Origin: an uncultured Clostridia bacterium
Lineage (GTDB): Bacteria > Bacillota > Clostridia > Christensenellales > Aristaeellaceae
Direction of reading: 5' to 3'
Assembly: GCA_947166705.1 (NCBI GenBank)
Contig: CAMVFE010000004.1
Span: 1 to 64,000 of the forward strand
DNA: 64,000 bases
The position numbers and the translations under genes were made by a program. The notes under the pieces are model-generated. The model saw nothing but the letters and a program-made list of their open reading frames with translations, was not told the origin of the DNA and did not search any database. Positions 11,124 through 46,197 of this stretch are shown here, piece after piece. Position 1 is the first letter of the stretch; each line of letters starts with the position of its first letter.

Positions 11124-11262
11124 CACACAAATGGATGCATTACGTAGTTTGGTATTTCTCCGAAGCGCCATAACCGACCTGAGTCGAGCAAGAACTGTCA
11201 GATAAAAAGAAAAATAATTGAAATGATTTTGAAATAAATTCACCGAACAACCCCTTGGAGTG

Positions 11263-11291
11263 TTGTTTTTCAGGACAAATTCTGATAAAGT
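11263..11291 (+). promoter_or_regulatory. Possible promoter of the giant surface-protein gene
   Basis: A weak -35 TTGTTT (11263-11268) and a -10 TAAAGT (11286-11291) lie 17 bases apart, and TGA directly before the -10 (11283-11285) gives a TGn extension. Transcription from here would start near 11298 and include the whole hairpin leader (about 170 bases). Neither hexamer is strong, so this is the best candidate rather than a firm call. Confidence 0.4.
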
Positions 11292-11332
11292 ATTTACATC
11301 CCGTCTATCACGATACCCTTTTTGGCCATAAA

Positions 11333-11422
11333 GCCCGAAAATCGGGCATCCGGCAGGCAGAACCGCGCCTGTCGTGTTTGGGCATCCCCGGAACAGGGAT
11401 GTTAAGAAGGTCCCCGGGGGAC
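11333..11422 (+). promoter_or_regulatory. Structured 5' leader with four consecutive hairpins
   Basis: Four stems follow one another just upstream of the giant gene. GCCCGA/TCGGGC (11333-11347) has an AAA loop. GGCAGGC/GCCTGTC (11352-11373) has one G-U pair. CATCCC/GGGATG (11383-11401) and GTCCCC/GGGGAC (11410-11422) complete the row. CCCCGG at 11386-11391 could instead pair with CCGGGG at 11414-11419, so the last two stems have a mutually exclusive alternative. The ribosome-binding region GTGGGG at 11457-11462 could also pair with a CCCC stretch of the leader. I compared it by eye with c-di-GMP, ZTP and TPP riboswitch patterns and found no match. The stems are seen; a regulatory role is inference. 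Confidence 0.5.
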
Positions 11423-11470
11423 GGGAAACGGCAATCGATAATCACCATCAGGAATAGTGGGGTTAAGGAT

Positions 11471-14400
11471 ATGGAAATTCGGCATCGCAGGATTCTTTCT
11501 CTCGTCAGCGCTACGGTGATGTTCTTCTCGAACATGCCTTTATCCGTGTTTGCGGAGGAAGGGGCGGAAATCCCCGAATCTGTCATGGAGGAAGCCTTTA
11601 CCGGAGAGGTTCCGGAGGCTCCGGCTGCGGAAAAACTGGTGCCGAAGCAGGCCCGGGAGGAAGCGCCGGCGGCGCAGAATCCGGAACCGGCTCCCAGAGC
11701 GGAGACTCCCGTTCAGGAAGAGCCCGCGCCGCAGCAGGCTGAAGCCCCGGGAAAGGAAGAGCCCGCGCTGCAGCAGGAAGATGCTCCGGCAAAGGAGGAA
11801 TCCGCGCCCCAGCAGGCTGAAGCTCCCAGACAGGAGAGAGCTCCGGAAAGCCGGACCGAACAGAAGCCTGCCGAAGAGCAACAGGCGGCACCGCGGCAGG
11901 CGGATGCTCCCTCCGTTCAGCAGGATGCTCCCAAAGAAGCTTCCGAACCTCGGAAGGTTTCCGCCGCGACGAATACTCCGATTCCGCTGCCTGAGATCCT
12001 GCCGGACGCGGAGATGGCGGTTGGAGATGAAACGGAGCTGCAGCTTCCGGCGTATGGAAGCGTCCTGGTGAAGCTGAATGTCCGGAAAACCGCGGATATC
12101 ATCATCAGGACAACCGGCGTACCGGTCTGGATGGACGCAAAGCAGGAGGACGGCAGCTCGTCCCGTTATCTGCCGGACGAGCAGGGCCTGATGAACGCAT
12201 CCTTCAAAGCGAAGGCGGGAATCTGGATGCTGACCTTTGCGGCCCAGCAGCCCGGAGACAGCGGGAAGCTGACCGTTGAGGTCCTGCAGGATGTTCCGGA
12301 AGAGAAGCCTGAAGCTGCCAAATCGGAGCCTGCGGAAGTGACGGAAGAAGTACAGGACGAAGTTCCGGCGGAAGAAGCAGGGGAGAGCGAAGAGACCGAA
12401 GTAACTGAAGAGACCGAGGATATCAAGGAAACCGAAACAACCGAAGAAACCGAGGAGACCGGAGAAACCGAGGAAACCAAGGAAACCAAGGAGTCTGAAG
12501 AAACCGAGGAGAGCGGGGAAACAAACGAGACTGAACTGGCCGAAGAAACTGAAACAACCGAAGAGACTGAGGAATCCGAGGAGACCGAAGAGATTGAGGA
12601 AACTGAGGAGACTGAAGAGATCGAGGAGACCGGGGAAACAAACAAGACTGAACTGACTGAAGCAACTGAAGCAACCGAGGAAACCGAAGCAACTGAAGCA
12701 ACCGAGGAGACTGAGGCAACCGAGGTAACAGAAGAAACTGGGGAAACCGAAGAATCAGAAGAAACAGAAGAGACCGGGGAAGCCGAAGCATCCGAAGCAC
12801 CCGAAGAGACTGAGGAGCCCGGCATCGTCGCGCTGACGGAAGAACAGCTGAATGTGACGCCGATCACCGGCGGTTCCCTGGACAGCCTGCTGGCGGAGGT
12901 CGGCCTGACCGCCGAAAAGACAGAGAAGCTTTCCGGCCCGATGAAGCTGCGCAGCAGGAATGCCGCTGCCGCGCCTGAAAACGGAAGTGTTACGGAATAC
13001 GCGGCTTTCGAAATCGAGCCGAAGGATGAGTACCTGACCGAAAACGGCACCTATCGGGTGACCGTGTCTCTGGACAGCATCAATCTGAATGACCGGATTC
13101 CTGAAAACGCGAAAATCACGGGGATCAATTACGCGCTGTATCATATTGCCTCCGCGGAGGGCGCAAACTTTATCCGGGAGACCCTTGTGCCCGAAGTGGA
13201 CGACGCGGGCCATATTCTGCGCGCATTCACATTCGAGACGGGTTCTTTCTCTCCGTTTATCCTGCGGTATACGGTGGAATTCCATTTCGGGGACGCGGAA
13301 GCGGTGATCGAAGGCGGAACGCAGATTCTGCTGTCCGACCTGATCCGCCTGCTGGATATCCGGGATGCCGAAGGCCGGCAGATCGACGTTCAGCGGGTTG
13401 AGTCCGTCGAATCCTCCGACGGTAATCTCGTGTCCGCGGAGGAGGTTTCCGGCACGGTTTCCGTGAACGGTACGGATACGGATGCCGGACGGAAGGATTT
13501 CCTGCTGACCAGCAAGGCCCCCTTCACCAGCGCGGAACAGCTGATTCTGCATCTGGCGGAAACGGAAGATCAAGAAGCGGAAACTGTGGCGGTCGGGCTT
13601 ACGGACGAGCAGGGCGAAGTCTATTCCCTGAACGACGAAAGAGCGACAGTGGAGGTATATGCAGCATCCTCCACCAGCAACCTGGCCCGGAACGGCCAGA
13701 TCAGCCTGAAGCTTGATTTTGACCTGACCGGAGACGCGCTGGACGCGGCGAAGGAATGCTACCATGTGGAAGCCATCAGCGCGGAGAAAACGCGGAAGGT
13801 CTACGACATGGTTTACGACCTTTCCGACGCGATTAACGGAAACGACGCCCTGCTGTCCGGGCTGATGAGCGGCAGCGGGGATATTATGCAGAACGGTTAC
13901 TCCGTGGGATCCTACGAGGTCTCCGGGGACAAGATCTATCTGCATCTGTTCGGCGGCACCGGCATGGACGAAGATACCACCCGTGCGTTCGGTACGGTGT
14001 CCTTCAGGGCCAGTTTTGACGAATCCAAGGTCGGAAACCGGGAAAGCGCCGATTTACGGTTCCCCGGATCCGAGGAGCCTGTTCCGGTTACCTTCGAGCC
14101 CTTCCAGTACAGGGACGGCTCCAAGAACGCGGAAAGCGGAACCGTCACGATTTATCCGGAACAGTATGAGAAGCGGAACGGCATGCAGGTATACTACATC
14201 CAATATACGGCTGTGCTGGAGCAGAAGGTCGGACTGGAGAACGTGACCTTCTGGGACACCATCGAGGACGCGTATCAGTATCTTGACCCGGACAGCGTCC
14301 GGGTGGACGGAGCCCCCGTGACACCCAGCGTGGACAACAAGACCTTCACCGTGTCCGCGGGCAGCCTGACGGCCAACACGCCGAAGATGGTAACATACCG

Positions 14401-38400: not shown

Positions 38401-41400
38401 GCTGCAGAACAGCGACGGCTCGTACGCGCAGATCGGCGCCGAAGGAGCGGAAGGCAAAACCTACGGCGGAATGACCTTCAGGACGAAGGAAGTGACCGTC
38501 GGGGAAGGCGCGGAGCCTGTGACGGAAACCAGGACCATCGCGGAATTCAAGCTGGACGGCAGCAACCGGAACACGATTTCCGCGACCGACCTGCCCGTGG
38601 GACTGAAGTACATCGTCACCGAGACGGACAGCAAGGGCCTCGTCTGCACGCAGACCGGCGAAATCGGCTCCATCAGCGGCGGAGACAATAACCGCGCGAA
38701 CTTCACCAACACCCGCGTGGACAGCGGACTGATCGTCAGCAAGAGCGTCGTTTCCGAACTGGACAGGGACAAGACGAAGAAATTCAGTTTCACGGTTACG
38801 CTGTACGATCCGCAGCAGAACAACACGCAGCCGCTTGCAAACAGGACCTATCACTACATCAAGCGGAGCATGGGAGACGATCCGGATGAGGGCGGCACCC
38901 TCACCACGGACAGCGAAGGAAAGTATCAGTTCACGCTTTCCGACGGAGAAATCCTGATCATTGAAGAGCTGCCTACGGACGCCAGGTATACGGTCCGGGA
39001 GACGCCTGACAACGACTTTGTCACAACCAGCCTGGGAGAAAACGGAACGATCCGCGCCAGCGCGAGCCTGGCAGAATTCGTGAACACCAGGAAGTCCAGC
39101 GAACTGATTCTGAAGAAGCTGGTGGAGAGCCCCATCGAGGCGGACAGAACCAGAACCTTCACCTTCAACGTCAAGCTGTACGATCTGAAGGATCACAACG
39201 CGGCAGACACCGAAGAGAACCGAAACTATCTGAAGGCCTACATCGCGGGCAGATACTTCAACGGCGCTGCCGGCGCGAACTTCTACGTCATGGCGGGCGA
39301 GGATCATACGCTGACGCTGGACGGAATTCCCGCCGACGTGCATTATCTGGTGACCGAGAATCCGGGAACGGACGGCCGCTTCACCATCACGGGACAGACG
39401 GACACGGAAGGCGTCACCGAGGCCAGGGTATCGAATACCCAGACCAACGCAAAAACGGCTGCCATCACCAACAAGCGCACCTCCAACCAGATGAAGATTT
39501 CCAAGACGGTGAAGAGCCCGGACGCGAATGACCAGGGTACCGAGTTCAGCTACACCATCGTGTTCAACGAGTCCATTACGGAGGACTTCCCGATCAGCGA
39601 CATCGTCGGCACCGTCGGCGGCGACAGCGTTTCCGAAAACGAGCCGAAGGTTCTGCAGGTGCAGTCCGGACGCGCGAAGGTCACCCTGAAGGGCGGAAGC
39701 TCGATGACGATCAACGGGCTCCCGACCGGCATGACCTACACCGTGATCGAGGCTCCGAACAGCAGCTTCACCGCGGATGAAGCGGAGAAGACCGGGCAGA
39801 TCGGGAATGAAGGCATCGCCTCCGCGGCCTACACCAACACCCGCGTGCCTGGGAAGCTGATCGTGAAAAAGACCGTCGACAGCGTCATTCCCGAAGACCT
39901 GACCGACAAGGAATTCACATTCAACGTGACCTTCAGCAAGGCGCTGAAGAGCAATGACACGGCGAATGATCCCTACTGGCAGCTGATCAGCTTTGAGAAG
40001 ACTACAGCCAGCGGGACGGAGACGGATTATGCCATCGACGGAAACAGCAAGACGTTCACGCTGAAGCACAGCGAAACCATGACCATTTCCGGCCTGCCCA
40101 CCGGCGTGACCTATACGGTGGCCGAGCAGACCGAGAACGGCTTCAGGACGACCAAAACCGGCGAACACGGAACCATCACAACGGTGGACTCGCAGGCAGA
40201 ATTTACCAACACCCGCGAGACCGGCGCGCTGGTCATCACAAAGAAGGTGAACAGCGATGTGGCCAGGGACAGGGACAATGATCTGACGAAGTTCGACTTC
40301 AGGGTGGAACTGAGCGATCCGGGCATTACCGGAACCTACGGAGACCTGATGTTCTCCAGGGAAGGCGAAGGAACGGAAGCGAAGGCCGTGGCCGAATTCC
40401 AGCTCGGAAACGGGGAGAAGAAGACCGTGACCGGCCTGCCCGGCAACGTGACCTACAAAGTGATCGAGACGCTGACAGGGAATCAGACCGGGATCTTCAC
40501 GCAGACATCCACGGGCCAAACCGGACCGATCGTGAACAACGCGACCGCGAACGCTGAAGTGACGAACACCCGAAAGACCGGAAACCTGGAGATCAGCAAG
40601 GCCGTCGTCAGCGACATCGAGGCCGACAGGACCCAGGCCTATACCTTCGACGTGACGCTGATGGCCGACGGCGTGCCGGTTTCCGGCACCTACAGCGGCA
40701 TTACCTTCGGAGAGAACGGAACAGCCGCCGTCACCATCTCCGGCGGCCAGACGCTGAAGCTTACGGGCCTGCCGGTCGGGACGGCCTGGACGGTCACGGA
40801 GCGCAAGCCGGCCAACTTTACCGCGCGGGTATCCGTCAACGGTGAAACTGCGGTGACCAGCGACCAGGGAGGCGGAACGATCAGCACAGGGACGTCGACC
40901 GCGGCCTTCACCAACACCCGGGAGAAGGGCAAACTCATCCTGCAGAAACAGGTGAACGGCGGCGTCGGCGAGGAGCTGACGAGAAACTATACCTTTGAGA
41001 TCCATCTGGACGCGGATATCGACAAGACCTACGGAGACGTACAGTTCCAGAACGGATATGCTTCCGTGACCGTGGCGGGCGGCCAGAGCAAAACCATCGA
41101 CGGCCTGCCCGTGGGAATTGATTACCGCGTGACGGAAAGCGCCGCCTCGGCGGAAGGCTTTGCCGTCGCGTACACGAATCAGGCCGGCACGATCACATCC
41201 GGCACCGCCGGAACGACCGTCATCGTCGAAAACACGCATGAGAAGGGCAGCCTGTCCGTCGACAAGGCGATGTTCATCAACGATGAGAAGATGGAGAAGA
41301 ATTCGGGAACCTACCAGAACAAGAAATTCTATATCCAGATCAGCACGGTTCTGGCGGACGGTACCTGGTATGTAACCGGCAGCAACGGTACGCTGAAGAA

Positions 41401-44400
41401 GGCGGACGACGCGACGCTGACGGCCGCGGAAAAGACGCATGCCGTCGCGTACAAGGATTTCGCCTGGACAGTCAGCAATCTGCCGGCCGGAACCTACACG
41501 ATTACCGAGGTCGCGGACGCCGCAGGCACGGCGGTCAGCGCGGGCAATATGAGCATCAATCATATGGACTATATCCCCGCGCTGTCCAGGACGACAGAGA
41601 CCGCGGAGGTCGCGGCGAACGCAACCGCCGGCGCCATGCTGGTGAACAAGTACACCAGGGGACAGTTCTGCATGGCCGTGACCAAGCAGTGGCTGGTGAA
41701 CGGCAGCGTGAGCGAAGCCAACGACAGCCTGACCGTCGGCGCCGCCCTGTTCCGCGGCATCCGGGACACGGCCTCCGGAGAGATCAGCTGGGAGACGGAA
41801 CCGGTCTACACAAAGGAGCTGAAGAAAGAGAACAACTGGTCCGCGGTGGCGGCGGGCATGGAACGGATGAACGAAGCCGGCATCCCGTACGCGTACGAAT
41901 GGCGTGAAGGCACCCTCAGCGGCAGCACCTTCACGGAGGGCGTTCCGGCGGGATGGGCGAAGGGAAAGAACCAGACCGTCGAAAGCAGGAGCGCCTCCAG
42001 CGCAGTCGGAGAGGATGAGAATCTGATCATCCTGACGAAGATGACCAACAGCCGGATCGACGCGGAAATCCCGGTTCAGAAGGTCATGACCGGCAGTCCG
42101 TACACCGGCGGCAAACCCTTCGAGGTGAAGCTGGCCAGAAAGAGCGGCACCGTTGAGGGCGATACTTCCGAGATCGTGAACGATACCCTGAGCCTGAAGC
42201 AGAACGAGCAGGGAACCTTCACGATCGAAGGAATCACCGTGCCCGGAACCTACATCTACGAGATCACGGAAACCAAGGGAAGCGTGCCCGGCATGACCTA
42301 TGACAGCGCCAAGAAGGAAGTTGCCATTACGGTGGGCTGGAACACGGACGAGCCCGCGGGTACCCGGCTGACGGCCTCCATCGTACCGGACGCGGCGGAC
42401 GGCCCCGTGCAGGTGACCAACGAGTACAGAACCGGAAAGCTGACCGTCATCAAGGAAGTAAAGAGCCCGCTGGCCGGGGACCTTGCGGAAGCCTTTGCCT
42501 TCACGGTGGAGCTGAAGCACGGCGGCCAGGCGCTGAACGGCCAGTACGGAGGATTCGTTTTCAAAAACGGAAAGACCGAAATCTGGCTGAAGCACGGCGA
42601 GCAGGCCGAGCTTACGGATATTCCGTTCGGAACGGAATACAAGGTGACGGAGGCGGAAAACAGCCGCTACGTGGCTACGATCGGCGGCATGGAGAAACGG
42701 ACGGCCGAGGGTACCATTCAGGACGGCACTTCGGATGTTTCCGTGACCTTCACGAACGCGCGGAAGCTGGGCGAGCTTGCGGTCAGCAAGACGGTTCAGT
42801 CCAGCCGCGCGGCCGACCTGACGCGTGAATACAGCTTCACCGTCCGGCTGAGCGAAAAGATTACGGGAAGCTTCCCAGTGAAGGTGAACGACGCGGCGGA
42901 TGCTTCGGAAACGGTGAGCTTTGACGAAGGAACAGCCACCCTGAAGCTGAAGCACGGAGAAAAGAAGACCATCCTGAAACTGCCCGCGGGAGCCATGTAT
43001 GAGGTGACCGAGGCAGAAACGGCCGGCATGACCTCCGCCCTCACGAACGCCGCAGGCACGGTCGCCCAGGGCACGGCGGTGAACGTTGCCTGCACGAACT
43101 ACGGCACAGGCATCCTGAAGGTGAAGAAGAGCTTCTCCGACAATGTGAAGAACATGGACGCGGTGAGGGATCTGGAATTCACCATCACCGGACCGGACGG
43201 CTTCACGCCCGTGACGGTGAAGTACAGCGCGTTCACGGACGGCGTCTACACCCTGAACGAGGTGCAGCCCGGCCGCTACAACGTGACGGAAAAGGACGCC
43301 ATCGGCCTGATCGCCGACTACACGCTGGACGCGGACAGCACCCTCAGCGGGGCGGCTACCGTACAGGCGGGAGAGACGGCTGAGATCGCACTGACCAATA
43401 ACTACACAGAGGACCTGGGCAGCCTGGTGATCCAGAAGGCCTTCTGCGGCGTGCCGAAGGATAATACGCCGTGGAACGAAGAAAAACTGGCGGACCTGAA
43501 GTTCACTGTCACGGGTCCGAACGGATACAGCAGGGAATTCGGGTACAGCGACCTGACCGCGACAGTCACGGACGAGAGCGGCAACCTGATCCGGATGCTG
43601 ACCATCCCGAACCTGAAGCCCGGCACCTATACCGTGAAGGAGAGCGGCGCGGAGGGCATCGTGACCGGCTACACGCTGAACGCGGCCACGTCGGTGACCG
43701 AAGGCTCGGCCGCGGTGGTGAAGAACGGAGAAGCCACCGCCGTGCTGAAGAACAACTATACGCGGGATGTCGGCCAGCTGCAGCTGAAGAAGACCTGGGA
43801 CATCACCGGTGTCACCGAAGTGCCGGACAGCGCGAAGAGCGACCTGCGCTTCGTGATCACCTCGGATGATGTGGCGGACTTCGAGCCCCTGACGGTCTAC
43901 TACGCTCAGTTCGCCGGCAGCGACACCTATACGGTGAAGGATCTGCCCATCGGCACCTATACGGTGACTGAATATGACCAGAAGGGCCTGCTGGCCGGCT
44001 ACGGATATCAGCTGATCCGGAGCGAGATCACGGCGGGCGGAGAGACGAAGACCGTTCAGGCCGCCGCGGCCGACGCGGACTTCGCCGGCGCCGCGGCAGT
44101 GAAGAAGGGCGAAACCTCCGCCGTTGAAATGAAGAACGTCTACCACGAGAAGAACGGCGGACTGACCCTGAAGAAGACCTTCGAGGGCGTTCCGGAAGGC
44201 GCGGATACCGACGGCCTGAAGTTCCTGGTGACCGGTCCCGAAGGCTACCGGTGCGAATTCGAATTCAGCGCGTTTACCGACGGAATCCTGCGCATCGACG
44301 GCCTGAAGGAAGGCGCCTACACCGTGAAGGAGACCAACGCGGAGGGCCTGATCGCCGGTTACCGGCTGACCGCGGGCTCCGTGACGGAAGGAAGCGCGGA

Positions 44401-46120
44401 AGTGACGGAAAACGGCGCGGCCGGCATCGAGCTGAAGAACAGCTACGTACCGGACGAAGGCGCGCTCCGGATCGACAAGGCCTTCACCTTCAGCGGCACG
44501 GCGCCGGACGCGGATCTGACAGGCCTGACGTTCACGGTGACGGGACCCGGCGGATATACGAAGACCTTCACCTACGGCGAGATGACGGACGGTTCGATCA
44601 CGCTGAGCGGACTGAAGGCCGGAGAATACACCGTGAAGGAAACCGGCGCCGAAGGGCTGATCGCCTCCTGGACACTGGCTGCGGGCAGCGTGACGGAAGG
44701 CAGCGCCGAAGTGAAGTACGGAAAGACCGCGAAGGTGCTCCTGACGAACAACTATGACGAACAGACCGGCAGCCTGAAGATCACCAAGACCTTTACAGGA
44801 AACCTGCCGAAGGACGCGGATACCTCCTCCCTGATTTTCCAGATCAGCGGACCGGGCGGATTCAGCCGCACTGTGACCTACGGCAGCTTCACGGACGGCA
44901 GCTATACGCTGCGGAATGTGCCCGTCGGCACCTACAGCGTGAAGGAAACCAACGCGGATACCCTGATCGCGGGCTACCAGCTTCAGGCGGACAGCGTTAC
45001 GACCGGGCGCGCGGCCGTGACGGACGGCGGCACAGGCAGCGTCGCGCTGAAGAACCATTACGACAAGGGCCTGGGAAGCCTGACCATCGAGAAGAGATTC
45101 ACGGGCTTGCTGGCCAGCGATATGGAGAACGCATCCCATCTGCTGTTCCGTATTCTCGGACCGGAGGGATACGACGAGACAGTTGAATACGCTGCCTTCA
45201 GCAACGGCCGTCTGACCCTGGAGAACCTGGTTCCCGGACAGTACCTGGTCTACGAGCTGAACGCGGGCGTGCTGGCGGCGAACCTGACCCTGAGGGAAGA
45301 CTCGGTCACCGCCGCGCAGGCCGCGGTCGAACTCAACAAGAATGCTGTGGTTGAGCTGACCAACCGCTACACGAATTCCAACACCTCCGTAGTGATCTAC
45401 AAGGTCTGGAACGATGTGAACAACAAGGACGGATCCAGACCCGCAAGCGTGAGAGCGACGCTGAGCAACGGCAACGGCAACGTGGCCACCGTCACGCTGA
45501 ACGCGGCCAACAACTGGATGGCGGAGATTTCCGGCCTGCCGCTGTACCGCGGAAACAATCTGATCCGCTACAGCTGGACAGAAGAATCCGTGCCGGGCTA
45601 CGTGCTGACGGATCAGAGGACGAGCGGCAACTCGACCGTTATTACGAACACCCACATACCGGAGCTGGTGAGCACCACGGTCATCAAGATCTGGGACGAC
45701 AACAACGACGAGGCGCATCTGCGGCCGAAGACGCTGCGGGTCACGCTGAGCAACGGCTCAACCTACAGGCTGAGCGAGGAGAACAACTGGAGCGTGACGG
45801 TGAATAACCTGCCGAAATACAGAAACGGCGAGGAAATCCATTACACCTGGAGCGAGCAGAGCGTGCTGGGCTACACCCAGTCCCAGACGACGGCGGCCGG
45901 GAACGTGACGGTATTCACGAATACCTGCAGGCTGTTCACACCTCCGGAGACGACGCCGCCCGGACCGACACCTCCGGGAACGCCTCCGGGAACCGTGCCG
46001 CCGCAGGAGGGAACGCCGCCGCTGCCCGGCAACCATGTACCGCTGTATATCCTGCAGGAATACGGCACGCCGCTGGGCGTTGAGGTCATCATCAACCATG
46101 TGGGCGACTGCTACGAATAA
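11471..46120 (+). CDS. Giant secreted multi-domain Cna-B / SpaA-type surface protein
   Basis: One unbroken frame of 34,650 bases encodes about 11,549 residues. I start at ATG 11471 because it opens a clean signal peptide, cleaved after residue 28 (SVFA|EE). Order: Pro/Glu/Ala-rich segment (about 29-170), Thr/Glu repeat (300-452), an N-terminal domain (453-876), about nine head modules resembling isopeptide-forming adhesin domains (877-2274), one SpaA-like module (2275-2444), and about 63 B-type modules (2446-11487). Most modules open with a V-K-x-W-type strand and close with Y-T-V-x-E plus an Asn-containing strand. This is the Lys/Glu/Asn layout known to form internal isopeptide bonds. Several modules are of FctA/Spy0128 type, for example at 30326 and 32512. 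A Pro-rich stretch and the tail INHVGDCYE end the protein; LPXTG, SLH and a membrane helix are absent. It is likely a very long adhesive or structural fibre. The ligand cannot be read from sequence. Confidence 0.93.
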   Translation: MEIRHRRILSLVSATVMFFSNMPLSVFAEEGAEIPESVMEEAFTGEVPEAPAAEKLVPKQAREEAPAAQNPEPAPRAETPVQEEPAPQQAEAPGKEEPALQQEDAPAKEESAPQQAEAPRQERAPESRTEQKPAEEQQAAPRQADAPSVQQDAPKEASEPRKVSAATNTPIPLPEILPDAEMAVGDETELQLPAYGSVLVKLNVRKTADIIIRTTGVPVWMDAKQEDGSSSRYLPDEQGLMNASFKAKAGIWMLTFAAQQPGDSGKLTVEVLQDVPEEKPEAAKSEPAEVTEEVQDEVPAEEAGESEETEVTEETEDIKETETTEETEETGETEETKETKESEETEESGETNETELAEETETTEETEESEETEEIEETEETEEIEETGETNKTELTEATEATEETEATEATEETEATEVTEETGETEESEETEETGEAEASEAPEETEEPGIVALTEEQLNVTPITGGSLDSLLAEVGLTAEKTEKLSGPMKLRSRNAAAAPENGSVTEYAAFEIEPKDEYLTENGTYRVTVSLDSINLNDRIPENAKITGINYALYHIASAEGANFIRETLVPEVDDAGHILRAFTFETGSFSPFILRYTVEFHFGDAEAVIEGGTQILLSDLIRLLDIRDAEGRQIDVQRVESVESSDGNLVSAEEVSGTVSVNGTDTDAGRKDFLLTSKAPFTSAEQLILHLAETEDQEAETVAVGLTDEQGEVYSLNDERATVEVYAASSTSNLARNGQISLKLDFDLTGDALDAAKECYHVEAISAEKTRKVYDMVYDLSDAINGNDALLSGLMSGSGDIMQNGYSVGSYEVSGDKIYLHLFGGTGMDEDTTRAFGTVSFRASFDESKVGNRESADLRFPGSEEPVPVTFEPFQYRDGSKNAESGTVTIYPEQYEKRNGMQVYYIQYTAVLEQKVGLENVTFWDTIEDAYQYLDPDSVRVDGAPVTPSVDNKTFTVSAGSLTANTPKMVTYRTFVTKDAVDAAGGSIRLSNSAKWNSLGSGDIPGGRADVSVTTGKPDGGSKSVTAKDASGNDQTGTNLSIKTRENDTDIHVLTYTLNISEPYPAADLTLTDTFGSLQSFDSSYGVVITRPDGSTVQVPSSSLTVSGNQFVLNLDEALGGPIQADQNYKITYQTTTTAKGEQIDNSASWEIDGHSGLPGGNTSVAFTEPGVKPGTKTAVGSKVMEVSGAGPYRIKWQLVINEDFVNAPGSLTLTDTYGSYQSLVKNTLEIADRNTWNTYKIGTDFPDSLVSDQGGSFRMDLVQVLDAVNSQYAYQTIALAPNKDYVITYETEVDAETLESAGHDLTAVNTAAWVMDGKNIPGGEDSVEVKHLSYVPGSKAWSRKDGTQYTKVDGNQALIHYTLTIQEPAAMTHAVLTDTLRGNQTIPADGSITVRGSDGTEVTVNAASYFNAETKTLTMDLAQALADQGSFRADVTYTVEYDALVSLTDGRADNIVNSAEWNLTGTDGYTEGVDGGENGPGTLTEEKFSPGTKTMTGITDSQGGALKQNGTAWVSAGEPPYTLNYEIRINEDRTPTESAVLTDTYSEFESIVPGSVKVIIGSGDGAKELSGVTITDNPSEHSFTLNLMAVLTAQGLTFQPKTDYTVTYQTTTGTSYSESDTNKIINRAKWTFDGTNQPESTTTTVIRKGMKLKKTVEYTRDAESGAPGYGGTAAYIITVGEAGKEIPADYTVTDYPLPLQMWSAQDSVKLTVTAAGAGRIYTIQNSQDSFGEFTYSHAYNQGNVFYSGTQDSNSPRFTFKFKENTTGPVTMTFTMDVVNAAQAKAAGIFGDKDVTNRVTGSDGTESETSFPIGLPERKAAKVEKAFSEFNSQTAVSSWSVLVTPPNGESLEDYELADDWNRFSTISAEDAETSAKKGTDFSGFKVTSKDGGTVYAENTDYAVTNGYGSFTLKFLNNSITDPVKVTYELAYPSWDYAVGSDIYMQNHVKITGAGQTSPDDEDTAEGSYENTDLPMEKTVTGSEKPWDAAPTDPARTYSFRIAVNPNWADISSPNGITVTDVLPAGMELVDEQHGENYAAQGISAPRVRVSANQGGLQGYYEVTQSGNTWTLALEDVRLNTKNAEIYYKARFTDEEYARLKNLTTGVEQKYINTATVSVPGTKRTATDTATVSYQYQNGVRKEDISARDTTEVEYVIYVNEDGRTLNEGNKLVLTDNISTKLELNKSTVRVYRKGTSQFVAADVSYDGDSRNLTISVPDRTPVEVHFKARLLSADAMEYVNGVTLTGQGSFYDEVSKEHRLTESGAEIHTESKGKIFLEKIDANSLSRTISGAKFELYKVEFNTETGVLKPSDSSEPIATAVSDSRGRVEFSNLSYTGVVPQDQVPLKYPELQVEGTQDSGAAFPYIYYWIETEVPADSGYVIGNNANPHYFLVYHGKESNTNPYYVEAKRIDELVQNANGIRVNSALEGYSWNVTNSRDKNFTVSKSWVGKDGEAKTEDLPESIRVTLYRSDAPETPFTAEGVENPVTVTVGASGAWTYTWRGLPALDANGEEYTYTAKETDVLDADGNSVTASWAASYQSIGSDSVTITNTELDEGTIEASKIWNDNFNRLLKRPEKITFTLEKSTDGATWEQVGEPVSVTAKEEWKHVWKNLPAEENDSPVTYRVIEDEVPGYKADQAIQVIEGGRGTAAFTNTLTSDNVTAVKQWVNADGTGIWPDGATVELELVKQITDPATGAVTTTELTGESIPAAYQTPEGEGAEWRNIIELNSGMTRATWENLDPLGENEAYAVREISVNGQPVADGAVTADGKTYDVFVTPVLGGKATVTNAERVSVRADKKWYQGYDEITDQDHQFIFDGEIDGTHYSFTYKLSDLRVVTRLRRYRDGAPDASFDADPLGAPMTIHGGVNEAAVLGQIEFNADGTVDQSSGSGHPMVSGSYQQTGAWEYTWSNLPSAGLDDQGNVFRYTYAPEEIGVYISRGVVSAATGLNMYADVTADFVTSVDGTTMKNVATETVQIEAEKAFPAGLPADSMPHAVQFTLYRKNVSGDTYINGEAYSKVTADASGTPITNPAVLMPGEAVTEGEILTWGVKALWENLAKYDQDSNQISYYVKETGVYYDDPDYLSEATVWADPDAIFTVSDGTVSIGNDNTGSLTITNEPVSVDVPVKKEWEDFADTDADWSAVVRLQWAKCDLETGEVISDWLDVQPVQEITVTKTMMSQADQPAESAANLAARTFAGLPKFGADENGNVYRIQYSVEEMSYILRDGGVTYTYQYPNSYNTDDESRQYTVYFPHDAGELSGEDGDYHIDISNALKNVTNKSYINLHLEKLWQGGNPTDSDAYARFTVRRYFHDEYRDTSHMTAEDLEAEPITITLYDQLEGRVINTISVRPNVGVSIAATFAPHTDGRKEVSYAVGSPSGARSTIYSSWYNAGIETVRSGMMYFTEDTTLYITTAITGILAGDSLSGIKLVDTLPGGSASQRDSSYVGPVITLNSGNNWSSSFAGLLQRETRGGSDVDGQETVRVYEYYLEELESSPSGFAAKFYHGRSLTEDNVTSQMEDGDVENRITTSDDITAYNTEKQVMKVTKVWRGVPDTTGYPTVTLQLWQGWANGDTVSINGGDSWQYTREDGTAYIITLPTSKPAEFEGTQIEWAARPEAWTYEIPEQLPETRPDPSNPSILRQVGYFLKEEPSSGENWSFYYYSNSNGKRTNSLNQGGAAGIVGSTGELSVTNQMGQYTQMDLKKQFFDLTSAGAWDDITARMHVNVLLGFKVIRKVYAEDGVTTLEDWKDYSDEMVVGYYNGNAVGNNRGNGFFLESGGGNWHFRIRDQKDPNSASSDLIGLPVNGYYVNAEGQSVKATYQYSFRETGVYKPTAVSGTIPGSNLGLVTSWTEHDWDWYSSIVPGDLYKELYGNGQMAFHGQNGDRIANFKASDLTIHKEWVGEPDAQEVYVKLYRYSEADDIEDFTMTIARAIREGRAHGRDWQGYLGKQDLSAIDLTNGWFVLKSSNNWEVPITVTRALLGNLNETGYYHYYIEEVGYKKDGVVVRDTAQVKKTYKPRYDKWLGTAEGGGWGGAPVSEGKAAEIKIGAKGENKLMVINSTEPSTSYHIQKAWADGKYPTDGTKAVIELQQRYRYEKTEDGTVYVWKNESGKNINNEADYQDASNWTTAEEAAESSWLVDWQGQENEDAPGVIVLPIEGKTGAEAYEYTWEGLNVLKRLTAEGEVKATLYYRAVETSSVDWNNPMLEGVGTMQRAAEDVTLEGGTITNEDKKLDKLTVSKKWAVNGSEVENWPAGYDIAYRIVRHAYLVETDAEKTGRRTEVTAAVTGREVEINQSGDNAALKAPETVFTSDKNSSSLNAERPSYTYDFEENPVRGGRWTVTETEAALPMNEAAGVEAGQTYTVRYVYEVIEDNAQSDKGNEAYVFSGVAIAEETETEGVTTASAELTNELDETEIVVEKKWTKDGAASDAWPEGAEVAFTVSRTAAIPDKGTLGDPYTKKNIYSSSEEDSDTNIKAADQKVIIPGLLNTGKYVTGDTLTEEEAALGLEPNTEYQVNYTYTVTEDPENSISPAQGYTYQEVTATVTADGAPVKDGQVVSEDTEGAHTDDLYTLTNDYTEITVKKQWRKAADENAADENAEEQTWTNIEWPEGYTVGYKIIAEIFVDSVKVGEEVKYTSSVAGETNLTADRQQYTVSNLPTRGVWTAGDTPAMTDAWRDGYISKNIIKDKTYPVTYRYRVEEATEEDEAGSTKPTDSDFIFRAVKAVFGEGVYTINNDLTQIKVRKEWTSQDTGSQVGVKLYVSKTKPGQTGVINLNISMSDVWKDGTIEPDTYTIPVIVEGTDGSRYQVNLNKDKPTAKLTVDKYGEAAEDQQIIIYTVSLGTPTGTTDASFISPQTGDTLTVSANDANVVVQAKGKTPYNASIRVYNQNYTGTITISAENAVYNTSYPDDWEPISNSWTNGSTVAQGNSTTLTNLIAGKTYRIKFQGMTNNSLPSHTVSGGTLSAEELWNQDRRLTIVAGVGENVITFSQPEEINVNVSVNSWNGGSVPSSGQINYTIKRESDQAVVKTGQLTQNNSWADSNIKLPKLESGNYYIEYSAGNNIQSAEPNGDSVFAGNSNKDLYVKATGQSSSGDTVTFTIQVDTWKTGNDVYNGNVTNPPQNSNGYITVEIRNNNNPAIVYDTLHLNAANEWKATSISINKKADQYNDTHINIVLIVDGSIVKQAIGGGYYSANVAGSNITVSLTAACGNASGFIKPKMIRASENRYFKTRNNQRTNTLLLMDSAPALNTNTYTLDDISLGEESNNMAIVGKSGLPTDAIELKQTDETGEYVTISGVYENGEYILNNTNSWEHLWNDLPKTDENGNPLYYYVIETSAVGPGSNVKAIYNRTPATATTPETITISDEIENEQKYGDLLVTKQMSGVTKAHWDKEFKFTVQNGQGEYLRDNGSGNAPTWQAGSYEWTITPETAVKFEHLPIGSYVLAETTNGRTLKCYTFNEMESVTATTAAGIRVTEFNTADAPATFQFRNVYEPETTSVTVTKAWVPAAPEGAEVTFKLYQNGVPYKIADKEVKIILDGEPDQDGEISPWKASFRGLRKYDDDEQPYVYTVKEADYSGTTWGHNYKVVYPDGKTEKYGTTEYAEHNDTITNQQDKGAVKVTKKVTGDQTSLPDSFIITATVTKAGSTKTITLQNSIAYPILNQTASANEDLANAELIRDGNSYTWEISNLDIGSHVEFAEGGAEMAGYELTATPADGKVSAEVAETTQEAVIINNYSELPGSLKIRKTVSVNNETSGDVFDTNKSKLTGTYTFTIESVARDAEDPTKAAVTRTAKITFANGAATSATIDDETAELTEGELIIPGLKAGTYTVKEESPTDGTSLILAAGETNPKTLTVTRGDTGSIQTAAFRNNRNVGSVSVKKLQKVNGENIELNGGETPETFYVALFSNSAPNTPIEGIREIRHNGTVTWENLEPGRYEVYEMTSGEEDARRVGQAIGVYTVTITQPDPDDSSRSIERNTIVLPDEANASVTATVINDQELTDVELTKNWDDSNNASGHRPTAEQFAGIVHLMADGTELTTGSPALTAGTEEGSWTAAWANGTVTAEIRDNGDNTYTVTWKELPKNDQGRGIYYTVSEDAEALAAMEGTGEYYTAGAVTEGTKKTEDGRTIPAFSVTNIHKKGSLRISKEIYRNGVKDTTANGKFHYGVYLCGSDGTPITEGEPAKLAAPVATGAIVMGSGTTATVSGLDAGNTYVVYELTDDPEKGGTPIQNNETGEINGVTYLVGYDYGTGRTNAVTAADRTTGVTITNSYAEASVEVTKHLLGRGWTMDDAFRFTISAADGNPAGAALPDPAVIEISAYDRTADAAKKKAAFGAIRFVSQGTYTFEITETTASGTDYTWPDSVTLTSPAENKAVVTIGVTEDPATGKLKAAVQSITMDGASADAALFTNTYSAEGSVPFEAAKKMVNGTLSQAYTIRLTQVTGNNQTTPVAADKAVMTTGERDAKQNVNTVSKITEVSEKTNDVVDFGAVSFLVNGETDQTGTYWFMMEEELPEGVSSTGVKDGIKYDTHKTWIRVTVEDLDRNGKLTVTKTVNGVDTVYVGGVRQGEGETAPDATFTNEQLVNIEAEKTWKDDQGNTINETIRNASVTFTLQQKVKTESIWTNAPVAPVTVTDKPWEATWTGLSKYLNSDESRELEYRIIETNAKVNTVDDITPTDEASTVKTVGDFGTDTEHVIPTGSAAFTNTLPKTELTVDKQWVNGLDDSWPVGVEKVSVSLLANGQQVKDPADGTKDWVREITRRAIDGTNPVAYESVPVTFEDLPKYDENGAPIEYSAGEILLTYVDGRTASAADSDYVSDSVMTRVGGKDTVIITNMKVEDRYCVAVTKYWNDNHDALGLRPDSIRVRLIATVKYANPESGEEENHLVKEYPIRTLTPAMGKTEGETYNNWTYMETGIPAKDERNRAIEYNWYEVVDENGTEKLIGKEQTYLDGEGHEHSIGGGVMTLKGLTYASDFSSVQWRKDDTTQPTLVTKVVNTPVTAEAVIPVEKIVTGISPDADEEFIITITEDIPEEGKNPDDKSSIEADTLKLTKGEHGSFRILHYNLPGTYTYTISETAGTTKGMAYDNNEYTVTVTVARSEDGKTLTATAKSALGEPAEETVLSDQEGKRVVITNVYESPLTRVTATKVWDDADNKDGLRPDIVFTLKGTYTYVDDNGTTVIGTVNIADTKDSEGTAQTAAKTIYAYVRDSAGNPTANLNGDLTAEWVNLPEYVDGHRVTYIVEETAAQGQSLDTYISVNTGLTWNEDEKRWEITFTNTLKANMLKLYKAFSFNGKPVDVNSLTEDEKAKLSFTITTAIGAGAEAKKYYVARDTATSAEDGNIHGKYAKLIEYTGEAPAKARFTYADFSDGMLVLERLPYGRYTITENDTGMIYGYTWSGATWQVNRSGAVQNAELTDGEVTAVNVDSAELKDGDFTQVFFTNAYTEDLGALKVTKLVTATSNGTDITGTASEITGRTFRAAVYAYLKGGRMVDKVTEGAVKTYFATNGEPLADTDDQVSNKNKWIELTKDGSQLWLNLPAGTYYVEEEDAAVTGWDLTKTIKVAGTEISTAGTAVATANTASQPVDVKISNDYDRQVGTLTVAKTHSGVPSGSEGTEYQFTVTDADGQYVSAAAESGNNTYAFAGFSTAETLYGVTAGDENKVTFTGLPIGTYTVTEKNPEGLYTNYTLIVEGDVRAGETGSTTTGTAALAKNGEKTVRLSNNYRQDKGAVKVTKTVTGAPADQESKIFHIGLKDGSGQFVKAGGSVTVKNGENDAAAGTDSFVGYYEVKAGESLIWSGLEIGTYTVEEAGTEANGDAWITGYTLTVTGSGTAVQTVRDQTTEATVVNSYDQDVGELTITKRFEITGGATIEELALLNSLKFHVASKEGTPAYARDIYLSQFTWLKEDGTETTNPAEAKSFRYVIGNLPAGSYTVTETGADGVIADYTLTAVKVNGEEADLTKELTGEGSFGKNGRDTVAFENDYALDRGSITVTKQVAGAPASEAEHIYYIGLKNSEGRFITAEDPITVKAFTTTERDDGIGGKQTVTTEENAESQTFDGAAYYKVRDGQQLRWASLPVGTYTVVEYGTELAPTEPGSANIRDYTLTVSGNNQTVALAKDGAEQAEVTNSYEPDFGSLTIAKEWCGVPAGALAYKKNASDEAVNLLGALKVTVRNAEGRYVKATNGIVDYDANGVPSFTDTADEIIITDGRNTTVSNLPIGTYTVTEVNGRTLLTAVNHELVSAAVNEIPAADLNNISGTADTTKGGNSTIVLKNNYREIRGSLKIEKQFSFTPELTGSADLAHLAFHVTGKSMVNGAEETVYDETYYLINFEGPTGGKYTLELTDLPLGTYTVTEDTTGVTVKQYTLTAATLTVNGADTPTALDITDGKVKEAEGKTAGGSAEIRINDAATADTDESTATFAFENKYEHDSGDLAIRKTLIGAIGSEETEMEFIFTVRLSDRSLTGPYAASLKTGDGEAKAYGTGIAFSDGKNTTPIRLKHNQTLTIQGLPAGVTYSVTEAEDADYTLTDMQHSNGTIESDPVTAEFVNTRKTGELKVTKTVVSSDANDRTKEFTVTVTLKNGGTAFAGKTVRVSRGSGEPEDAATDTEGRLIFNDVTDGDSIVITGIPIGLRYSVEETNADGFTVTYNGETELKDAVMAAKVEAEILNKKNEGSMAVTKQVSSKVNADLTSKEFTFTITMKDASGNAVVTAYDSADSDRPVSGFFYGTLTKPGYQDSTLTRSREIVFNSQGEATITLKHNETMTIDGIPAGYTYTVREAQADNFETASTGDVENITIARDETRSAVFTNTRINAPLTIDKTVISDVKAEQTAEYPFTVRLLLGHEVLSGTYKVDYYDQKTGEVTRENVDVAFNDGEAVILVKGGGKAVIKEIPVGASFTITEQTDSVFESERTDSSGNVMLKDGVTASFKNTRKKGKLDVGKTVISANGADKTQEYSFTVELQNSDGSYAQIGAEGAEGKTYGGMTFRTKEVTVGEGAEPVTETRTIAEFKLDGSNRNTISATDLPVGLKYIVTETDSKGLVCTQTGEIGSISGGDNNRANFTNTRVDSGLIVSKSVVSELDRDKTKKFSFTVTLYDPQQNNTQPLANRTYHYIKRSMGDDPDEGGTLTTDSEGKYQFTLSDGEILIIEELPTDARYTVRETPDNDFVTTSLGENGTIRASASLAEFVNTRKSSELILKKLVESPIEADRTRTFTFNVKLYDLKDHNAADTEENRNYLKAYIAGRYFNGAAGANFYVMAGEDHTLTLDGIPADVHYLVTENPGTDGRFTITGQTDTEGVTEARVSNTQTNAKTAAITNKRTSNQMKISKTVKSPDANDQGTEFSYTIVFNESITEDFPISDIVGTVGGDSVSENEPKVLQVQSGRAKVTLKGGSSMTINGLPTGMTYTVIEAPNSSFTADEAEKTGQIGNEGIASAAYTNTRVPGKLIVKKTVDSVIPEDLTDKEFTFNVTFSKALKSNDTANDPYWQLISFEKTTASGTETDYAIDGNSKTFTLKHSETMTISGLPTGVTYTVAEQTENGFRTTKTGEHGTITTVDSQAEFTNTRETGALVITKKVNSDVARDRDNDLTKFDFRVELSDPGITGTYGDLMFSREGEGTEAKAVAEFQLGNGEKKTVTGLPGNVTYKVIETLTGNQTGIFTQTSTGQTGPIVNNATANAEVTNTRKTGNLEISKAVVSDIEADRTQAYTFDVTLMADGVPVSGTYSGITFGENGTAAVTISGGQTLKLTGLPVGTAWTVTERKPANFTARVSVNGETAVTSDQGGGTISTGTSTAAFTNTREKGKLILQKQVNGGVGEELTRNYTFEIHLDADIDKTYGDVQFQNGYASVTVAGGQSKTIDGLPVGIDYRVTESAASAEGFAVAYTNQAGTITSGTAGTTVIVENTHEKGSLSVDKAMFINDEKMEKNSGTYQNKKFYIQISTVLADGTWYVTGSNGTLKKADDATLTAAEKTHAVAYKDFAWTVSNLPAGTYTITEVADAAGTAVSAGNMSINHMDYIPALSRTTETAEVAANATAGAMLVNKYTRGQFCMAVTKQWLVNGSVSEANDSLTVGAALFRGIRDTASGEISWETEPVYTKELKKENNWSAVAAGMERMNEAGIPYAYEWREGTLSGSTFTEGVPAGWAKGKNQTVESRSASSAVGEDENLIILTKMTNSRIDAEIPVQKVMTGSPYTGGKPFEVKLARKSGTVEGDTSEIVNDTLSLKQNEQGTFTIEGITVPGTYIYEITETKGSVPGMTYDSAKKEVAITVGWNTDEPAGTRLTASIVPDAADGPVQVTNEYRTGKLTVIKEVKSPLAGDLAEAFAFTVELKHGGQALNGQYGGFVFKNGKTEIWLKHGEQAELTDIPFGTEYKVTEAENSRYVATIGGMEKRTAEGTIQDGTSDVSVTFTNARKLGELAVSKTVQSSRAADLTREYSFTVRLSEKITGSFPVKVNDAADASETVSFDEGTATLKLKHGEKKTILKLPAGAMYEVTEAETAGMTSALTNAAGTVAQGTAVNVACTNYGTGILKVKKSFSDNVKNMDAVRDLEFTITGPDGFTPVTVKYSAFTDGVYTLNEVQPGRYNVTEKDAIGLIADYTLDADSTLSGAATVQAGETAEIALTNNYTEDLGSLVIQKAFCGVPKDNTPWNEEKLADLKFTVTGPNGYSREFGYSDLTATVTDESGNLIRMLTIPNLKPGTYTVKESGAEGIVTGYTLNAATSVTEGSAAVVKNGEATAVLKNNYTRDVGQLQLKKTWDITGVTEVPDSAKSDLRFVITSDDVADFEPLTVYYAQFAGSDTYTVKDLPIGTYTVTEYDQKGLLAGYGYQLIRSEITAGGETKTVQAAAADADFAGAAAVKKGETSAVEMKNVYHEKNGGLTLKKTFEGVPEGADTDGLKFLVTGPEGYRCEFEFSAFTDGILRIDGLKEGAYTVKETNAEGLIAGYRLTAGSVTEGSAEVTENGAAGIELKNSYVPDEGALRIDKAFTFSGTAPDADLTGLTFTVTGPGGYTKTFTYGEMTDGSITLSGLKAGEYTVKETGAEGLIASWTLAAGSVTEGSAEVKYGKTAKVLLTNNYDEQTGSLKITKTFTGNLPKDADTSSLIFQISGPGGFSRTVTYGSFTDGSYTLRNVPVGTYSVKETNADTLIAGYQLQADSVTTGRAAVTDGGTGSVALKNHYDKGLGSLTIEKRFTGLLASDMENASHLLFRILGPEGYDETVEYAAFSNGRLTLENLVPGQYLVYELNAGVLAANLTLREDSVTAAQAAVELNKNAVVELTNRYTNSNTSVVIYKVWNDVNNKDGSRPASVRATLSNGNGNVATVTLNAANNWMAEISGLPLYRGNNLIRYSWTEESVPGYVLTDQRTSGNSTVITNTHIPELVSTTVIKIWDDNNDEAHLRPKTLRVTLSNGSTYRLSEENNWSVTVNNLPKYRNGEEIHYTWSEQSVLGYTQSQTTAAGNVTVFTNTCRLFTPPETTPPGPTPPGTPPGTVPPQEGTPPLPGNHVPLYILQEYGTPLGVEVIINHVGDCYE
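12370..12830 (+). repeat. Thr/Glu-rich minisatellite-like coding repeat
   Basis: About 150 codons consist almost only of Glu and Thr with scattered Ser, Gly and Ala, arranged as ETE/TEE triplets. The DNA is a degenerate 6- to 9-base repeat based on GAAACCGAGGA. A 25-base unit starting CGGGGAAACAAAC occurs at 12514-12538 and again at 12631-12655 with one difference, exactly 117 bases (39 codons) apart, which points to an internal duplication. Copy-number change by multiples of three would keep the frame, so this strongly acidic spacer may differ in length between strains. Confidence 0.85.
14100..18290 (+). repeat. Array of about nine head modules in the giant protein
   Basis: Roughly 140-160-residue modules repeat here. 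Each has a strand like LTLTDTFGS or VLTDTLRG, a stretch such as YTVTYQTTT, and an ending with N-x-A-x-W (for example NSASWEIDG, NTAAWVMDG, NRAKWTFDG). The pattern resembles adhesin domains of the isopeptide-forming type near the outer tip of Gram-positive surface proteins. The modules are well diverged at DNA level, so they are not recent duplicates. Being at the N-terminus they would sit farthest from the cell if the protein is held by its C-terminus. Confidence 0.7.
18806..33845 (+). repeat. Classical Cna-B module array (about 30 modules)
   Basis: Thirty modules, most beginning with a VxKxW-like strand: TVSKSWVG (18810), EASKIWND (19160), TAVKQWVN (19470), RADKKWYQ (19870) and so on to TATKVWDD (32938) and LKLYKAF (33356). 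Typical module length is 95-190 residues, longer than the minimal Cna-B fold, so many carry loop insertions. FctA/Spy0128-like units are mixed in at about 30326-30745, 30750-31250 and 32512-32920. Module 15 (from 25710) is interrupted by the AT-rich insert. Borders were read by eye from the repeat starts. Confidence 0.75.
25807..27330 (+). other. AT-rich, Asn-rich block nested inside a Cna-B module
   Basis: The Cna-B module that opens with IKVRKEWTS at 25711 resumes only with NSWEHLWNDLPKTDENG near 27422. About 500 residues of a different repeat lie between. Three related strands recur: ISMSDVWKDGTI (about 25822), VSVNSWNGGSV (about 26488) and IQVDTWKTGND (about 26797). Composition shifts sharply inside: 21 of 60 bases are G or C at 26881-26940 and 22 of 60 at 27001-27060, against 34 of 60 at 24241-24300. 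Asparagine and AT-ending codons dominate from about 26150 to 27420. This looks like a foreign or differently evolving cassette inserted in frame. Confidence 0.75.
33855..45930 (+). repeat. Compact stalk module array (about 33 modules)
   Basis: Modules of about 95-145 residues each open with G-[SAE]-L-x-[IV]-x-K (GALKVTKLV at 33855, GDLAIRKTL at 36810, GKLIVKKTV at 39850, GSLTIEKRF at 45073). They close with a TVxE strand and FTNTR- or LKNNY-like endings. From about 36810 to 41240 they form a homogeneous run of DUF7601-like units containing LKxGxxxTIxGLPxGxxYxVxE. From 43110 to 45370 a second run shares TVTGPxGY and YTVKExxAEGLIA elements. The last two modules (45385-45930) return to the classical Cna-B type with a KxWxD start. 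Confidence 0.75.
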
Positions 46121-46136
46121 GCATCAGGGACTCGGA

Positions 46137-46166
46137 CGCGGTTCGGGGTTTTACCCCCGAACCGCG
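46137..46166 (+). terminator. Perfect 12-bp hairpin after the giant gene
   Basis: CGCGGTTCGGGG (46137-46148) pairs perfectly with CCCCGAACCGCG (46155-46166) around the loop TTTTAC, starting 17 bases after the stop. No T-run follows, and the next start codon is only 31 bases downstream of the stem. It may terminate weakly, protect the end of a 35-kb mRNA from 3' decay, or separate expression of the next gene. Confidence 0.6.
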
Positions 46167-46197
46167 GGCCGGGGAGACGGAGAAAGGAAAGAGAAAG

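Follow-up and report, generated by a model that had tools for sequence, protein, structure and literature searches.

A giant isopeptide-type stalk gene in an uncultured Clostridia bacterium, and the linkage of its conserved C-terminal tail to an OppA-like solute-binding protein gene

The giant stalk gene and its modules

The window analysed here is a stretch of 64,000 nucleotides from an uncultured Clostridia bacterium (assembly GCA_947166705.1, contig CAMVFE010000004.1, positions 1 to 64,000 of the forward strand), and it is part of contig C4 in a genome of 2.18 Mb and 73 contigs with an estimated completeness of 71%. More than half of it is occupied by a single 34.65-kb gene for a protein, hereafter the stalk, that consists largely of isopeptide-type modules, ends in a short conserved tail and is directly followed by a gene for an OppA-like solute-binding protein (SBP). 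The tail and the SBP gene recur side by side in related genomes, and we consider below whether the SBP may hold the tail. The features of the locus are as follows (aa, amino acids).

11471..46120, +, giant stalk gene, an open frame without internal stop (11,549 aa), with Pfam matches over most of its length
11471..11554, +, signal peptide of non-lipoprotein type (aa 1-28), from sequence reading, with a putative cleavage site
11555..12940, +, N-terminal Pro/Glu/Thr-rich region (aa 29-490), less repetitive near aa 165-270, from sequence, with no Pfam match
14054..18256, +, head of nine CnaA/D2-like modules (aa 862-2262), Collagen_bind PF05737 E 2.4e-11, with K, D and N positions chosen by eye
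18317..45922, +, 64 prealbumin-like modules (aa 2283-11484; SpaA, Cna_B, FctA, DUF7601, DUF5979), from tiling, shuffle controls and Pfam
26000..27400, +, insert with a GC content as low as 34%, within module 16 (626 aa), from base composition
36827..41233, +, compact stalk, a DUF7601/DUF5979 run (aa 8453-9921), from Pfam
45242..45922, +, last modules (aa about 11258-11484), nearest to the collagen adhesin B repeats 1d2p/1d2o by profile and Foldseek
46031..46117, +, conserved C-terminal tail (aa 11521-11549), ending in YGTPLGVEVIINHVGDCYE, from sequence searches
46121..46197, +, 77-base gap with a strong hairpin and no T run (ViennaRNA minimum free energy -34.7 kcal/mol, for the gap plus the stop and start codon)
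46198..48663, +, OppA-like SBP, 821 aa, no lipobox

The stalk frame comprises 11,550 codons including one terminal stop, in a window with 0 N, and it is open and in register throughout, as a preliminary description of this DNA had stated in calling it one unbroken gene for about 11,549 residues. An alternative TTG start upstream at 11255 would give a longer frame; we kept 11471 because the ATG there opens a signal-peptide-like sequence, MEIRHRRILSLVSATVMFFSNMPLSVFA. The GC content at third codon positions (GC3), taken in 1000-codon bins, is 0.76-0.83 in nine of the 12 bins and lower in bins 1, 5 and 6 (0.68, 0.69 and 0.59, respectively), with values of 0.78 in the SBP gene and 0.79 in a neighbouring M16 peptidase gene. 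The low-GC insert of about 1.4 kb is in frame within a Cna_B-like module and rich in Asn, Ser and Thr; no NCBIfam family and no Pfam stretch was seen there, and it was probably acquired.

Pfam, run on the protein cut into twelve pieces, returned Collagen_bind, SpaA, Cna_B, FctA, DUF7601 and DUF5979, with no family in pieces 1 (aa 1-1000) and 5 (aa 4001-5000). Cna_B, SpaA, FctA and DUF7601, the models with which the preliminary description had suggested searching, all matched along the protein, and in two 1000-aa pieces of the compact stalk PF24547 matched in 7 stretches (E 5.1e-85) and in 8 stretches (E 1.4e-115). The total of 73 modules (nine CnaA/D2-like and 64 Cna_B/SpaA/FctA/DUF7601-like), which mixes rule and judgement, agrees with the earlier estimate of about 70 Ig/prealbumin modules. 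The boundary motif for the 64, an Asn strand, a short linker and a Lys strand, occurred 66 times in raw form against a shuffle mean of 5.9 (maximum 13); eight matches, doubles or misplaced, were dropped and five boundaries were added by hand, giving 64 units. The presence of K and N in all 64 modules is partly by construction, because the boundaries were set by this motif and by hand edits. The Glu motif stands at the expected place in 62/64 modules against a shuffle mean of 9.5 (maximum 21). Judged by sequence only, Lys, Asn and Glu (or Asp) are in place for the isopeptide bond, and most modules would be able to form an internal Lys-Asn bond. The closest pair among the 64 is 53.5% identical, which makes a collapse or expansion of repeats during assembly unlikely.

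A profile of the stalk C terminus together with 56 related ones matches the B repeats of the Staphylococcus aureus collagen adhesin Cna (1d2o, E 6.5e-50; 1d2p, E 4.9e-99). In a predicted structure of the last 300 residues, where the modules mostly have a predicted local confidence (pLDDT) of 93-98, the same repeats rank first in Foldseek, so that they are the closest solved structure to the last modules both by profile and by fold. Cna is an S. aureus adhesin, whereas the window gene has about 73 modules and a different C terminus. Taken together, these data support a protein that is one giant stalk of isopeptide-type modules. If each module has a typical length of 3.5-5 nm, the stalk, fully straight, would measure about 250-350 nm.

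The conserved tail and the linked solute-binding protein gene

The last module and the tail are separated by a Pro/Gly/Thr-rich linker, and the sequence of the stalk C terminus contains no LPXTG-like motif, hydrophobic or membrane segment, or basic end, which lends indirect support to the earlier suggestion that the molecule is made without polymerisation by sortase. In the model of the last 300 residues the tail has a pLDDT of about 52-57 and is probably unstructured and flexible. With the last 59 residues as query, the same ending was found in the own genome on four other open reading frames (ORFs; two on C43 and two on C25), one of which is 6,051 aa long, while an ORF on C18 ends in a degenerate form and a Cna_B ORF on C39 ends without the tail. 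Long tail-bearing frames of 6,119 and 6,147 aa were also found in two relatives, the latter in a two-contig assembly. A broad tail model run over 297 genomes of the order matched in nine, which belong to a single family (the own genus with six genomes, other genera with three); an earlier model run over 391 genomes of the class matched the own genome and gave three further matches at E 0.006-0.008, which were taken for chance. NCBIfam returned 0 families for the last 149 residues of the stalk or for one companion protein.

The SBP of the window has a PF00496 match and the family-5 (OppA-like) fold, and its sequence profile and fold are like those of the OppA/AppA peptide-binding proteins 9p48, 1xoc and 3drf (folds compared by VIA-align). 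The own genome encodes three members of the subfamily of this SBP, and immediately upstream of each lies a Cna_B gene that carries the tail in its usual or a degenerate form. To collect further loci we searched named genomes by SBP alignment only, the tail not being used, and kept the best 80 of 171 relatives, which are not independent of one another. Their record titles are mostly those of Clostridia/Clostridiales metagenome-assembled genomes, many with isolate names from ruminant guts, with a few Christensenellaceae (Christensenella sp. UBA4379 among the titles), Oscillospiraceae and one labelled Bacteroidia.

A tail-bearing gene lies directly upstream of the SBP gene in 76 of the 77 testable loci, 67 by a strict pattern and nine, with variant tails, by eye (L069, L070, L076, L078, L091, L097, L103, L129 and L130); L082 is the sole locus of the 77 without an upstream tail, and in three more (L064, L095 and L101) the upstream sequence was too short for the test. 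All nine tail-positive genomes fall among the 12 that are SBP-positive, and the other three have tail-like ends upstream of the SBP, GECFE in G010 and G214 and ADCLE in G058. The numbers of SBPs per genome are lower bounds (at most three candidates, elsewhere two, were scored per genome).

Excluding seven of the 80 loci (three at contig edges, the tail-less L082, the short L086, and L106 and L113, whose tails are identical to those of L072 and L109) left 73 tail-bearing C termini of up to 300 aa each. Counting from the end, Gly at -5 and an acid at -1 are present in 73/73, an acid at -4 in 72/73 and Cys at -3 in 66/73. The commonest form is Y-x-T-P-L-G-x(4)-I-N-H-V-G-D-C-F-D at the carboxyl end, the chain ending two residues past the Cys, and among 31 tails the codons vary while the residues are constant. 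None of the 73 contains LPXTG, nor is there a hydrophobic window in their last 60 residues. The families found in these C-terminal pieces include Cna_B (55), DUF11 (13), DUF7507 (11), MucBP (9) and others.

In a tree of 56 SBP rows, whose bootstrap had not settled, 41 of the 42 tail-type SBPs cluster at 88/95 on a branch that is not starred, and the SBP of L180 (tail end ADCLE) groups with the outgroup; a single origin of the tail-type SBPs would be plausible on these sequences. Stops occur within some of the SBP profile matches (G284:C1:3148893-3150920, G097:C43:2305-4302, G079:C8:15270-17129 and G214:C4:118174-120225), for which an overrun of the match is likelier than decay, the open frames being 664-741 aa.

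No permease was found among the genes scanned beside the window SBP, which has neither the lipobox nor the adjacent permease of a functional Opp transport system. Nor was any OppB-like match found in the examined flanks of the 80 tail-type loci, in a test with four queries from outside the order and seven positive controls, four of them the queries' own loci. Among 68 ORFs scanned downstream of the pairs, no transporter or processing enzyme stood out in the first 25 of 69 families. By comparison, the nearest outside SBPs are lipoprotein-like in 7/7 cases, adjoin an OppB permease and have no tail, and ten SBPs outside the subfamily likewise have no tail upstream.

The tail is also found on sortases. 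In three genomes of the own genus (G284, G097 and G254), sortase-MucBP proteins end in forms of it (QVGICAE, QAGICAE and QIGICLE, respectively) and are followed by the SBP gene, which has a PF00496 match in G284 and G254 and is alike by eye in G097. The tailed sortase-MucBP genes preceding an SBP gene are the following.

L205:1663-2934, tailed sortase-MucBP protein
L206:1415-2686, tailed sortase-MucBP protein
L177:4092-5399, tailed sortase-MucBP protein

A small tail protein and an SBP adjoin a sortase in these three genomes and in G179, followed in G097, G284 and G179 by a gene that by eye resembles a signal peptidase and by an LPSTG pilin. Because a sortase has its own membrane segment, a tail on it would more easily be a docking site than an anchor. 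No sortase was found in the own genome, which is 71% complete, and each of the five other genomes of the genus examined encodes 2-7; the idea that the genus lacks sortases and uses the tail as a substitute was rejected on these counts. Among the genes scanned around the stalk gene there is no pilin or pilus-sortase gene: the genes upstream match arginine biosynthesis and an M16/PreP-type peptidase, and those downstream are the SBP gene, one gene without a family and MatE transporters.

A disulphide between the tail Cys and the SBP was not supported, Cys 214 and Cys 502 of the SBP being kept in 8/8 rows with a Cys-less tail (99 sources, 16 filtered out, leaving 83 rows, two of them without an upstream gene).

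Three side observations concern the tail and SBP genes. Many tail-type SBPs end in acidic residues, often F plus acids (e.g. at 48570-48660 in the window), with a faint likeness to the tail end. The gap between tail and SBP gene was folded in 36 further cases, where the hairpins are GC-rich and without a T run, some equally strong and some weak; the hairpin may set unequal expression of the two genes. The tail genes of G179 (L049-L052, L209 and L210) contain near-identical repeats seemingly in shifting frames, unlike the window gene.

A possible docking system and its alternatives

We propose that the product of the gene is a single fibrillar stalk of great length, with about 73 modules stacked on one another, and that its last 17-29 residues act as a flexible docking peptide and not as a sortase signal. 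The downstream gene would provide a secreted OppA-type peptide-binding protein, derived from the OppA of an ATP-binding cassette (ABC) transporter and now without that transporter. It would clasp the tails of the stalk and of other surface proteins in its peptide cleft, and this binding would retain or assemble them at the envelope. Docking is supported by the linkage of the genes, by a tail that is portable and, with its low model confidence, probably flexible at its end, by the fold of a peptide binder and by the lack of a transporter context. This reading, with an OppA detached from its transporter that holds the docking tails of the stalk and of other surface proteins, seems to us about evenly balanced between right and wrong. 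The bolder proposal, in which a linear C-terminal tag and an exapted OppA that clasps it, off its ABC transporter, form a dedicated docking system of Christensenellaceae-like gut bacteria, used by giant isopeptide stalks, by proteins of mucin-binding type and even by a pilus sortase, is put forward more tentatively, at slightly less than an even chance.

Several observations weigh against docking. When the pairing is followed in the reverse direction, the 36 tail matches in nine genomes have an SBP gene next in 20 cases and not in 13, three weak ones being unread; the window gene counts among these 20, but neither of the two G079 giants belongs to them, nor does the giant of 6,051 aa in the own genome. 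Given this one-sidedness (13/33 tail genes with no SBP next), action in trans must be assumed. The loss of the lipobox is unspecific, since 7/10 other SBP family-5 proteins of the genus have no lipobox-like string either, and such a string is present in 5/72 testable tail-type SBPs (L084, L089, L125, L131 and L141; eight of the 80 were too short for the test), convincingly by eye in L089 and L131. Docking would also call for some other anchor that holds most of the SBPs to the cell. A low pLDDT at a chain end can also be caused by a shallow alignment, the products of co-inherited neighbouring genes need not touch, and the 80 loci, taken as the best of 171, lack independence from one another.

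The alternative that fares best, although we consider it rather improbable, is that the tail is a C-terminal sorting signal for an enzyme or secretion component that attaches the stalk, perhaps via the Cys at -3, with the SBP as a helper, e.g. a chaperone. The constancy of Gly -5 and acid -1, the frequent Cys, the occurrence of the tail across architectures and the 13 tail genes with no SBP beside them would all suit such a signal, and MYXO-CTERM, a short tag with a conserved Cys found at the C terminus of many surface proteins, is a precedent for a Cys-bearing sorting tag (PMC11980579). However, as that source describes it, the MYXO-CTERM/myxosortase system has a membrane helix, an Arg-rich end and cleavage by a CPBP protease, whereas the window tail has neither helix nor Arg-rich end and its linked gene encodes an SBP; the order expected of MYXO-CTERM/PEP-CTERM-like tags, a motif followed by a membrane helix and a basic end, was not found in it. 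Moreover, 7/73 tails are without the Cys, the tail also ends a sortase, and no processing enzyme stood out beside the pair in the downstream scan.

Still less likely is a role of the SBP as a scavenger or sensor of peptides that is co-displayed and shares an operon with adhesins for physiological reasons, with a tail that binds another target, e.g. the cell wall. The SBP fold is that of peptide binders and the other SBPs of these genomes mostly lack a lipobox, so that soluble SBPs may be normal here, but the pairing follows the tail and not one adhesin type (76/77 loci, several architectures), the ten SBPs outside the subfamily have no upstream tail, and no permease was found near any of the 80 loci.

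An ordinary giant adhesin, anchored by sortase and with a decorative tail, is very improbable: the 5/5 other genomes of the genus examined encode sortases, and pilus loci with a tail-SBP pair of their own include LPSTG pilins, but the stalk has no LPXTG, membrane helix or basic end, the 73 related C termini have no LPXTG or hydrophobic segment, and no sortase was found in the own, albeit 71% complete, genome. An assembly artefact, to which the 73 contigs, the 71% completeness and a low-GC stretch that could mark a join might point, is similarly improbable, since the frame runs unbroken across that stretch, the modules are at most 53.5% identical, GC3 is even in 9/12 bins and other giant frames carry the same tail, one in a two-contig assembly.

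Comparison with known surface proteins, and a second shared ending

The known means by which bacteria fix surface proteins are membrane segments, lipids, wall-binding domains and tag-cutting enzymes. If docking is true, the holding of a peptide tag by a nutrient-binding protein retired from transport would add a further principle of surface attachment, and it would account for the retention of LPXTG-less giant stalks by these gut bacteria. The prediction is a small one that can be tested with one synthetic peptide and one soluble protein.

The closest likeness to the stalk is the giant adhesin of Mobiluncus mulieris, of 7,651 aa with 51 cross-linked Ig-like domains, likewise a single-gene stalk of many internally cross-linked Ig-like domains, the cross-linking being predicted from sequence in our case (PMC10619420). 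The cross-links of the Mobiluncus adhesin are shown by mass spectrometry and crystals; a putative TED domain lies at its N-terminal end, and the description of the second-largest protein as "also" LPxTG-anchored implies that the giant has such an anchor too. The window stalk is longer, has Cna_B/DUF7601-type modules and ends in a conserved tail without LPXTG. With about 73 modules it exceeds this one described giant isopeptide adhesin that we found, but size alone makes no new kind, and the same paper refers to an adhesin of 1.5 MDa that has about 120 Ig-like repeats; the rarity of such proteins in bacteria was therefore overstated in the preliminary description. Isopeptide domains are commonly accompanied by LPXTG and other sorting domains (PMC12617251). 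The Giant1-5 proteins of Apilactobacillus kunkeei are also extracellular, 3,000-8,000 aa long and without predicted membrane segments, but according to PMC12863079 they have other repeats and SH3b-like C-terminal domains proposed for wall binding, in contrast to the isopeptide modules and linear tail of the window stalk.

The SBP shares profile and fold with OppA/AppA (9p48, 1xoc and 3drf) and differs from them in having no lipobox, like most of its kin, and a tail gene upstream; no permease was found beside the 80 tail-type loci. In the literature searched, mostly at the level of titles and the beginnings of abstracts and outside subscription papers, we found no description of the tail or of the tail-SBP pair. 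Giant cross-linked adhesins and C-terminal Cys tags are already known, and we think that the tail with its linked SBP is the more novel part.

Finally, a second shared ending, roughly Y-x-W-(R/K)-x-x-V as read by eye, is frequent on proteins near or upstream of the tail-bearing giants, at the following positions.

L042:787-3384
L049:9672-11636
L052:3537-6950
L175:704-3778
L181:10967-13063
L182:12703-14667
L209:3295-5871

The protein with this ending is possibly a third member of the gene cluster.
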